Below are positions 22,198-26,096 of a stretch of DNA of 64,000 nt, one piece after another (the stretch's first letter is position 1; every line of letters starts with the position of its first letter). The stretch is taken from positions 1,846,729-1,910,728 of the forward strand of contig CP070686.1 of the NCBI GenBank assembly GCA_020353055.1. The letters run 5' to 3'. This stretch comes from Caldifarciminota bacterium (lineage in GTDB: Bacteria; Hydrothermota; Tepidihabitantia; SM23-42). The position numbers and the translations under genes were made by a program. The notes under the pieces are model-generated. The model was given only the letters and a program-made list of their open reading frames with translations. It did no database searches and was not told where the DNA came from.

Positions 22198-22315
22198 GAA
22201 TTAGTTTATCGTATTGTTCTTCCGGTTATCGAGCATCCTCGTTCCACATAGTGGAACGGGACACGACATAGATTTCATTAGTGCAACCTTTCACTATTAT
22301 GCTTACGCAAATCGA

Positions 22316-22389: not shown

Positions 22390-23043
22390 TTATTCTTTCC
22401 AACCTTGCTTACCCAGTAACGGTACAAAGGTACACTCGAATAACTCCTTACGGAATATTCTTCCCCTCTGCTTTGTCACCAGATTCAGAGTCTGAAAACT
22501 CTCACTGCCGACTGGAACAACCAATCTACCCTTCTCAGCCAACTGTTCAATCAAAGCATTAGGCACTTCAGGTGCTCCGGCAGTGACTATTATCCCATCA
22601 TAAGGAGCATACTGAGGCCAACCGAGGCTGCCGTCACCGATCATGAAAGCAATATTCTTGAAACCCAATTTGTCCAGTTTGTCGCGTGCTTTCTCTTTCA
22701 ATGCCGACAATCTCTCGATTGTGTATACCATCTTACAAAGCAACCCAAGGATCGCCGTTTGATAACCAGAACCAGTACCTATCTCAAGTACCGTATCATC
22801 AGACTTCAATTCCAGGAGTTCGGTCATCACCGCAACCATATACGGCTGCGATATCGTCTGCCCGTGACCGACCGAGAGCGGATAGTCATTATATGCTTGA
22901 TGAACGTATATCTTATCAACAAAGGAATGCCTCGGCACCCGCATCATGGCATCGATGACCCTCTGGTCTGCCACGCCGCGGGCGACAATCTGTTCTTTTA
23001 CCATTCTTTCCCGCTCGTGCCGCCATTCCTGTATCTCGATCAT
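22390..23043 (-). CDS. pcm: Protein-L-isoaspartate O-methyltransferase
   Basis: A 217-residue PCMT. N-terminus MVKEQIVARGVADQRVIDAM, PRHSFVD, GHGQTISQPYMVA and the SAM site VLEIGTGSGYQTA near residue 82 are diagnostic. It methylates isoaspartyl residues so that damaged proteins can be repaired. The ATG is about 9 nt after a TATTCT -10 hexamer, giving a very short leader without Shine-Dalgarno. The stop codon directly touches the tRNA-Pro gene. Confidence 0.95.
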   Translation of the reverse strand: MIEIQEWRHERERMVKEQIVARGVADQRVIDAMMRVPRHSFVDKIYVHQAYNDYPLSVGHGQTISQPYMVAVMTELLELKSDDTVLEIGTGSGYQTAILGLLCKMVYTIERLSALKEKARDKLDKLGFKNIAFMIGDGSLGWPQYAPYDGIIVTAGAPEVPNALIEQLAEKGRLVVPVGSESFQTLNLVTKQRGRIFRKELFECTFVPLLGKQGWKE

Positions 23044-23052
23044 CGTCCCATT

Positions 23053-23080
23053 AGAATAGCCGAAAAGCGTCAGAAGTCAA
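23053..23080 (-). promoter_or_regulatory. Promoter of pcm-tRNA-Pro
   Basis: TTGACT (23075-23080), 16-bp spacer, TATTCT (23053-23058), 9 nt before ATG 23043. Leader length would be only a few bases. Confidence 0.6.
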
Positions 23081-23105
23081 TGCCAATTTTTCCCAAATTT
23101 CACAT

Positions 23106-23324
23106 TTGGCTAAAAAATTGAGCATCCCGCAATTTGTGTGCGGGGAGCCACATTTATCCGCTTCGTCTATTTGGCTAAAAAATTGAGCATCCCGCAATTT
23201 GTGTGCGGGGAGCCACATTTATCCGCTTTGTCTGTTTGGCCGAAAAATTGAGCATCCCGCAATTTGTGTGCGGGGAGCCACATTTATCCGCTTTGTCTAT
23301 TCGGCTAAAAAATTGAGCATCCCC
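23106..23324. repeat. 65-bp tandem repeat, three full copies plus a partial fourth
   Basis: Units begin at 23106, 23171, 23236 and 23301, exactly 65 bp apart, with only a few differences. Each contains CCCGCA, 7 nt and TGCGGG (23126-23144 in unit 1) and an A6 run that reads as T6 on the minus strand, so each resembles a terminator module in the surE direction. The fourth copy diverges after GAGCATCCCC into another hairpin. The period is not a multiple of three, so no protein repeat is encoded. The whole 23044-23432 interval is otherwise non-coding. Confidence 0.9.
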
Positions 23325-23354
23325 AGTCCGCCCTTTAATCAGGCGGACGAGGGG
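23307..23354 (-). terminator. Strong hairpin behind surE (variant fourth repeat unit)
   Basis: GTCCGCC (23326-23332) pairs with GGCGGAC (23342-23348) around a 9-nt loop, extended by CCCC/GGGG with a small bulge. On the minus strand a T6 run follows 8 nt after the CCCC/GGGG base. It lies about 80 nt after the surE stop and probably terminates the glycosyltransferase-surE transcript. Confidence 0.5.
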
Positions 23355-23432
23355 AGCAAAGCGCCGGGGCACCGAGTGCGGGGTATCATCAACAAAACAA
23401 CTGTGTCGATCGGGAATAATCCAACTGCTTGC

Positions 23433-24173
23433 TTACCCGGATTTTCCTCCAATGTATTCATCCAGGTTTTGCATTACATCGTAGTCGGTTAAATCCAATT
23501 TCAAGGGTGTAATTGAGACGTAATGCTTGTCGATCGCCTTGAAATCGGTGTCATTATCGGCCCGGTATGACAGTACACCGTCAATAATTGAATATATGAC
23601 GTTTTTCTTCTCTCGATCCCTTATTACTTTATCTTTGTAAATACGTTTTCCCATCCGAGTGATTTTCTCGCCCTTGATCTTGCCATTAGGTATATTGACA
23701 TTGAGGATAATATCATCCCTCTCCGATGCGAGGACCCGGCTGATCAAATCACATGAGTATTTCACTGCGTTTTCAAAATCACAGATTGCATCAACCGCGA
23801 TCGAAATGGCCAGTGATTTTATTCCCATGCTCGCGCCCTGTAATGCTGCAGCAACGGTCCCCGAATAAAAAACATCGCTGCCCATGTTTGGACCGTGGTT
23901 TATCCCCGATACGACAAGATCGATCTTCATTCTCATCAAATCATGATACGCCAGAAGCACGCAATCAGTAGGCGTACCGCCAACAATGTAGAACCTATCA
24001 TGAAGCTTCTCTACTCTTATCGGTTTCCTCAGTGTCAATGAATGACTTGCGCCGCTCTGCTGCGCACTCGGCGCGACCACAAAGACGTCATGTTTCTCTT
24101 TTAGTTCTTTGTATAAAACCTGCAAACCTGTCGCGTCGTAACCGTCGTCATTGGTCAACAATATCAGTGCCAT
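23433..24173 (-). CDS. surE: 5'/3'-nucleotidase SurE
   Basis: A 246-residue SurE phosphatase. LTNDDGYDATG carries the metal-binding Asp-Asp; APSAQQSGASHSLTL, GGTPTDCV and SGINHGPNMGSDVFYSGTV complete the active site. It dephosphorylates nucleoside monophosphates and some polyphosphates. The start overlaps the upstream glycosyltransferase by 10 nt, showing an operon. SurE is often next to pcm; here pcm is the next gene downstream beyond the repeat array, under its own promoter. Confidence 0.95.
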   Translation of the reverse strand: MALILLTNDDGYDATGLQVLYKELKEKHDVFVVAPSAQQSGASHSLTLRKPIRVEKLHDRFYIVGGTPTDCVLLAYHDLMRMKIDLVVSGINHGPNMGSDVFYSGTVAAALQGASMGIKSLAISIAVDAICDFENAVKYSCDLISRVLASERDDIILNVNIPNGKIKGEKITRMGKRIYKDKVIRDREKKNVIYSIIDGVLSYRADNDTDFKAIDKHYVSITPLKLDLTDYDVMQNLDEYIGGKSG

Positions 24174-25940: not shown

Positions 25941-26014
25941 GGGCGGTTAGCTCAGTTGGTTAGAGCGTCGGTCTCACATACCGAAGGTCATGTGTTCAAA
26001 TCACATACCGCCCA
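25941..26014 (+). tRNA. tRNA-Val (CAC)
   Basis: A 74-nt cloverleaf. Acceptor GGGCGGT/ACCGCCC perfectly paired, D arm GCTCAGTTGGTTAGAGC, anticodon stem TCGGT/ACCGA around CTCACAT (anticodon CAC), and T stem ATGTG/CACAT. CCA is not encoded. It marks the edge of a short orphan-gene region. Confidence 0.95.
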
Positions 26015-26051
26015 TGCGAAATACACTTGTATTTGTTGTGTAATACAAAGG

Positions 26052-26096
26052 TGGATTTCAGCATCCCGAGCGCAGCCGAGGGGTTTTTTGTGCAAA
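26052..26096. repeat. Repeat- or terminator-like GC-rich element with T6
   Basis: AGCATCCCGAGCGCAGCCGAGGGG followed by TTTTTT resembles the outer part of the 23.3-kb hairpin (GAGCATCCC...GGGGAGC). Pairing is weak (CCC/GGG only), so a terminator for tRNA-Val is possible but unproven. Confidence 0.3.

Follow-up and report, generated by a model that had tools for sequence, protein, structure and literature searches.

A dispersed two-hairpin element of a WOR-3 order and a tandem array that probably grew from one of its copies

What are the 65-bp hairpin repeats that lie between surE and pcm in the 64,000-nucleotide stretch of DNA analysed here (the window), and is their pairing kept for the sake of an RNA? 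The window comes from a genome of 2.69 Mb in a single contig. An initial annotation of its sequence had described a tandem 65-bp array with three near-identical units and a fourth of variant sequence that keeps the structure, and this array is real. TRF reports it as the single array in the 64-kb window (23104-23323, period 65, 3.4 copies, 94% matches), and its core 29-mer occurs three times, compared with no occurrence in 100 shuffles. Units 1-3 mutually differ at 1, 4 and 3 of 65 bases, and unit 4 retains the frame GAGCATCCC...GGGGAGC around a new, paired stem, GTCCGCC/GGCGGAC (hairpin B4). The span given for the feature, 23106-23354, began too far to the right. A complete bulged hairpin (TGCCAATTTTT...AATTGAGCA, hereafter hairpin A) opens the first copy and moves the start of the array to 23081 (Table 1). 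The 65-bp units consist of the 3' arm of hairpin A, a second hairpin (hairpin B) and a linker, and the rest of A is not repeated; since the units copy the 3' arm of A alone, the unit register originally chosen is wrong. DNA folding yields z = -3.4 for A1+B1 and z = -1.1 for the second unit, and the 5' arms in units 2-4 now pair poorly (18.5-22 bits with the hairpin model R1 described below).

Table 1. Positions and supporting evidence of the features in the window
Feature	Position	Strand	Evidence
pcm, protein-L-isoaspartate O-methyltransferase	22390..23043	-	Pfam PF01135, 224 bits
Promoter-like site TTGACT-16-TATTCT ahead of pcm; -35 hexamer adjoins first base of hairpin A	23053..23080	-	Sequence; similar region in array-free relatives
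Hairpin A, complete parent copy: foot TGC/GCA (3 bp), bulged A, 9-bp stem, short 3'-side bulge, CCAAAT/ATTTGG 6-bp stem	23081..23124	+	R1 68.1 bits, E 2.7e-15 over the window (copy is among the 23 sequences from which R1 was built); DNA fold
Repeat unit 1: A 3' arm, hairpin B1, linker GAGCCACATTTATCCGCTTCGTCT	23104..23168	+	TRF, sequence
Hairpin B1, CCCGCA...TGCGGG	23126..23144	+	DNA fold, sequence
Repeat unit 2: differs from unit 1 at 1 base; A hairpin decayed, hairpin B at 23191-23209	23169..23233	+	TRF, fold, R1 22.0 bits at 23146-23194
Repeat unit 3: differs from unit 1 at 4 bases; hairpin B at 23256-23274	23234..23298	+	TRF, R1 18.5 bits at 23211-23259
Unit 4: A 3' arm, then the different hairpin B4 (23321-23354, CCCC-A-GTCCGCC...GGCGGAC-GA-GGGG)	23299..23363	+	Fold, sequence
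surE	23433..24173	-	Pfam PF01975, 204 bits
Third element, decayed (remnant of A 3' arm and hairpin B), downstream of tRNA-Pro(cgg)	22230..22262	+	Sequence; R1 does not reach E 1 here
tRNA-Val(cac), mature 3' end adjoins second element	25941..26014	+	Rfam 73.1 bits, ARAGORN
Second element: hairpin A (26015-26063) and hairpin B (26065-26083), first base directly after tRNA-Val(cac)	26015..26083	+	R1 49.1 bits, sequence

The initial annotation had offered two readings of the array, serial terminators or a mobile small repeat. On the minus strand a T run does follow the hairpin, but the T6 begins 8 bases past it, and unit 3 has five T. A terminator scan, which looks for a GC stem with a T run no more than 2 bases behind it, placed no terminator-like site in 23081-23363, both of its sites lying inside pcm (compared with 1.3 expected in shuffles); we therefore rejected serial terminators. 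The second reading survives in altered form. The 65-bp unit itself is not dispersed: a DNA search of the genome returned eight matches, of which one is the array and the other seven are scraps of 14-21 bases. The closest named surE relatives are candidate division WOR-3 MAGs, the best five with SurE proteins 83-90% identical. All five of the nearest surE relatives examined (L031-L035) lack the insert between surE and pcm, and the TTGACTT...TATTCT region ahead of pcm is also found in array-free relatives. What is dispersed is the hairpin element from which the units derive. Used as a DNA query, the array gave short matches in 13 of 100 genomes, the window genome included, and these share a common plan.

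We built a model of hairpin A (R1) from 23 hand-picked elements, a choice that makes it lean towards well-paired copies. Up to 150 candidates per genome were scored (up to 41 in the comparison of order with phylum), and the genome counts are thus lower bounds. At E<=0.1, R1 matches at least 23 of the 27 genomes of the order. At E<=0.01, it matches at least 22 of the 27, compared with at least 3 of 120 genomes elsewhere in the phylum, each with 1-2 copies; the window genome alone has at least 29 matches at this threshold, two of them overlapping on opposite strands. The pattern AATTNAGCATCCC occurs 50 times in 23 searched genomes of the order (four of these in the window array), against 2 occurrences of the reversed pattern; some of the 50 fall inside genes and are chance matches. 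Within genus g12, one genome (G023) has at least seven matches at E<=0.1, and two others (G024, G026) have none among the candidates scored. The window carries two further elements (Table 1), and relatives have a better-kept element (R1 21.9-42.4 bits) in place of its decayed third one. Rfam recognises only tRNAs in the window and returns no match at E<=1 between 22900 and 23500. A phage or plasmid origin was rejected: the array has no match in 50,697 phage and 72,556 plasmid records, and 29 viral contigs that share an exact 16-mer with it, a negative control, contain no hairpin A (best 22.4 bits). The listings returned by literature searches for repeats or palindromes in WOR-3 or Stahlbacteria, and by broader searches for repeats, contain nothing on such a family, the WOR-3 items on palindromes concerning viruses.

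The fetched loci yielded 184 R1 hits, and removal of 16 overlapping, truncated or duplicate ones left 168 distinct elements, of which 159 or 130 entered the analyses that need full flanks. From its base upwards, hairpin A has a foot of 3 bp and then stems of 9 bp and 6 bp; a bulged A separates the foot from the 9 bp, and a bulge of 2 nt separates the 9 bp from the 6 bp, both on the 3' arm. Of the 168 elements, 161 have the bulged A and 165 the 2-nt bulge. The foot is variable, with eight Watson-Crick types accounting for 147 of the 168 elements (TGC/GCA 79, CAC/GTG 29, TCC/GGA 13, CGC/GCG 12, TTC/GAA 6, TAC/GTA 5, CTC/GAG 2 and TGT/ACA 1). The initial annotation had called for a covariation test across copies; run on the parent hairpin, it finds that paired letters change together. 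In an alignment of 23 sequences (A1), 12 of the 18 pairs contain double changes, and the double-change cells number 64, where shuffles give 18.7 and slid pairings no more than 9. Hairpin B lies within 60 nt of A in 80 of 159 elements; five shuffles gave 2-8 such cases and an offset control gave 9. Only its closing CCC(G)/GGG is common, the inner sequence being free, and 79 of the 80 are distinct. The AAATTG/CAATTT and CCCGCA/TGCGGG pairings, previously described as alternatives, are indeed available in each full unit, but this looks incidental, because CAATTT is part of the hairpin B loop, and hairpin B is not conserved. The B4 subtype (GAGTCCGCC..GGCGGACGAGGG and close forms) is also present in elements of two other genomes (G003, G010). 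Many hairpins B (for example in L304 and L312) have a tandem GA/GA mismatch, a motif stable in DNA, beside the closing CCC/GGG (CCCGAG...CGAGGG). Behind tRNA-Arg(cct), five loci (L300, L275, L316, L352, L360) show a long-stem hairpin B (CACCTTTTC...GAAAAGGTG and close forms) enclosing an insert whose length varies.

It is likely, with a probability that we put at about two in three, that the array arose by tandem amplification, in place, of a single copy of this dispersed element of the WOR-3 order, and that we are dealing with a non-autonomous miniature mobile element read as folded single-stranded DNA. The protein that recognises it would respond to shape and bulges and not to sequence, like REP transposases and integron integrases. 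The array itself may have formed when a template switch during replication, at the hairpin A apex, led to a second round of copying of the 3' arm, hairpin B and the linker. The last unit carries another B subtype. Tandem arrays with a period of at least 30 within 350 nt accompany 4 of the 168 elements (L148, which is the window array, L326, L336 and L348), and in three of the four the unit begins at the hairpin A apex or next to it.

The elements have a marked relation to tRNA genes. Twenty-eight of the 168 start between -4 and +2 bases from a tRNA 3' end, always in the sense of the tRNA and behind Arg, Tyr, Val(cac) or Pro(ggg); two more overlap the last five bases of tmRNA, and three, on the strand opposite a tRNA gene, start at the 5' end of that tRNA (two at SeC, one at Pro). 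Behind tRNA-Arg(cct) the element abuts the tRNA in six genomes and stands 14 bases behind it in the window genome. Elements persist at the same tRNA in several genera, and when such elements are compared across genomes, 580 pairs are equal, 230 have changed on both sides and still pair, and 34 are mispaired. In three genomes of the genus (G000, G001, G005) an element stands ahead of an orthologous gene, and its position is identical to the base. Many copies are thus old and kept, and persistence at the same tRNA in several genera suggests a host function as much as mobility. The orientation of elements to neighbouring genes is mixed. In the flanks of elements that do not abut a tRNA, fragments of tRNA ends gave no signal (5/140 compared with 2/138). 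Elements placed so precisely at tRNA and tmRNA 3' ends prompt the question of what is cutting or joining DNA at these sites.

We compared the mismatches tolerated in hairpin A with those in true RNA stems. Over the 168 elements, 2861 of 2989 pair cells (95.7%) are Watson-Crick, 37 are G.T, 46 A.C and 45 other; an earlier count on 174 elements gave 2943 of 3074 Watson-Crick, with 37 G.T and 47 A.C. In the acceptor and T stems of 42 tRNAs encoded at these loci (those of 65 distinct tRNAs that passed a pairing filter), 504 cells comprise 479 Watson-Crick, 23 G.T, 1 A.C and 1 other pair. The ratio of G.T to A.C differs between hairpin A and the tRNA stems with a Fisher p of 3e-6. As G.T is no commoner than A.C, unlike in tRNA stems, the pairing is held at the level of DNA and not in an RNA of one strand. 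A covariance model (Infernal) should favour G.U on the modelled strand, and any bias in the selection of elements therefore runs counter to the lack of a G.T excess. The preserved pairing noted in the initial annotation holds for the whole family, and the RNA function deduced from it is contradicted: this is the pattern of pairing kept in DNA. The same comparison tells DNA hairpins from RNA hairpins and could be used on other bacterial repeats.

These counts bear on the view that the hairpins work as RNA, being transcribed together with the gene beside them and serving as signals for tRNA or mRNA 3' processing, stability or termination. Such a role would fit the 28 copies transcribed in sense behind tRNAs, which stay at the same tRNA across genera and are the most tightly paired of all (488 of 498 cells Watson-Crick), as well as the window copy behind tRNA-Val, whose hairpin B is followed by six T. 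Even the tRNA-abutting copies, however, have no G.U excess (2 G.T and 4 A.C). Other copies sit on either side and either strand of genes, the copy beside the -35 box lies outside what the pcm promoter would transcribe, and the array has neither a terminator-like site nor an Rfam match. We thus regard an RNA element as unlikely.

If the element moves as folded DNA, as we favour, insertion sites and a mobiliser should be considered. In three relatives (L032 3407-3455, L033 5693-5741, L035 5692-5740) the 3' part of tRNA-Pro(cgg) is present a second time behind that tRNA and is split by an element, with at most 1 base duplicated and no target-site duplication. The same arrangement is found in G003 (L315), and the window keeps a decayed version of it (22230-22262). 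Direct repeats flank 10 of 89 elements compared with 1.75 expected in one test; in a stricter test they flank 6 of 130, and a slid control was no lower. Genes for Y1 transposases are present in 26 of the 27 genomes of the order, with or without the hairpin element. Among 50 loci, some overlapping and covering part of the Y1 matches, none had a convincing hairpin A near the Y1 gene, and one genome (G012) with at least 22 element copies has one weak Y1 match, in a 169-aa frame. A Y1/RAYT mobiliser was thus rejected, as the genes are near-universal, element-free genomes included, and no inspected gene is flanked by elements. A 166-169-aa Y1 (RAYT-like) gene beside peptidase-like and gyrB-like genes (named by eye) recurs in genomes with and without the element (L230 3632-4132, L233 2628-3128, L242 2675-3184) and looks domesticated. 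Reverse transcription was likewise rejected (PF00078 in 3 of 27 genomes, none of them the window genome). No integron integrase scored over the TIGR02249 cut-off in the 27 genomes, and the search brought up ordinary tyrosine recombinases instead. These searches found no mobiliser, which counts against our reading.

Among 20 loci around such recombinases, presumed to be non-Xer, hairpin A abuts a tRNA 3' end exactly in six. In four of these six (L375, L376, L378 and L383, in G004, G018, G023 and G025) hairpin A follows a tRNA-Arg, and the recombinase gene stops 10, 11 or 18 bases short of that tRNA or runs 24 bases into it; Pfam confirms the recombinase in three of the four. The hairpins might thus be remnants of attachment sites of tRNA-integrating elements that use ordinary tyrosine recombinases. 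Against this stand the 140 of 168 copies away from any tRNA 3' end, the recombinase loci at tRNA-Leu without an abutting hairpin A, and a foot without a conserved core sequence, and we consider such an origin quite unlikely. From the four tRNA-Arg loci one could also argue that hairpin A is a recombination site of a new class, formed by folded single-stranded DNA and read by shape alone (foot, bulged A and 2-nt bulge), for which tRNA and tmRNA 3' ends would be docking places and on which the order's own tyrosine recombinases would act, like an integron without cassettes or integron integrase. We consider this a rather improbable proposal; recombinase genes and hairpin A may both simply favour tRNA genes.

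The symmetry between strands has a further possible source. Replication template switching can repair imperfect palindromes and would place double changes on both strands alike, so that the pairing would not be under selection at all. This accounts for the strand symmetry and for tandem breakpoints at the hairpin apex, yet such correction would also erase the bulges, which are kept in nearly every element, and it leaves the dispersal and the order-limited range unaccounted for. We find this explanation very unlikely. That the array is an artefact of assembly is most improbable, for although related genomes are metagenome-assembled and the window genome probably is too, the units differ by up to 4 bases and arrays of the same plan stand beside three other elements in other genomes.

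A mobile element read as folded DNA, our preferred reading, invites comparison with systems that are recognised in this way. The rtT repeats are tandem, lie directly behind E. coli tRNA-Tyr, have longer units and occupy a single locus. They are like the A-B family in being tandem repeats behind a tRNA and, from this description, are set apart by unit length and single locus; the window array has no Rfam match. Sites of the attC type have bulges on one arm, occur in arrays and contain the boxes GTTRRRY and RYYYAAC. In our 168 elements GTTRRRY occurs three times, RYYYAAC once and the two together never. The A-B family shares the one-arm bulges and the arrays, and differs from attC in lacking this box pair, an integron integrase over the cut-off in the 27 genomes and any cassettes seen. 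Its sequence is likewise poorly conserved and it would likewise be read by structure, as attC sites are in the account compared (PMC2727003). Bacterial MITEs are put at 70-300 bp with terminal inverted repeats of 15-30 bp in the passage compared (PMC3733652). The A-B elements are like them in size (about 70-100 bp), in being non-coding and in being dispersed, but by our reading of the elements their ends, the foot of A and the foot of B, belong to independent hairpins and are not inverted repeats of each other.

The REP/REPIN-RAYT systems are also close in kind. In the descriptions compared, most REPs have GTAG or CGTC tags and those with GTAG are thought to be moved by RAYTs (PMC3733652), a bulge in the E. 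coli REP is required for cleavage and activity of TnpA-REP (PMC8266576), and REPINs show compensatory changes and ordered tandem clusters (PMC3116915). As far as these descriptions go, both families comprise many short intergenic palindromes with compensatory changes and tandem clusters; REPs act as folded single-stranded DNA in which irregularities of the stem matter, as the A-B elements probably do, and hairpin A indeed folds with irregularities on one strand. A GTAG or CGTC tag was found within 6 nt of A in 2 of 159 elements (control 6/159) and within 6 nt of B in 5 of 80. Unlike REPs and REPINs, the A-B family is thus without a tag at the hairpin foot, lies away from Y1 genes in the 50 loci inspected, combines two unlike hairpins and abuts tRNA and tmRNA 3' ends, a feature absent from the REP descriptions compared. 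The hairpin A-B family probably works like REP/REPIN and attC systems, yet by the tests made here it belongs to neither. It provides a natural experiment in which DNA is selected for shape and not for sequence, with nearly all paired positions changed and two bulges fixed.
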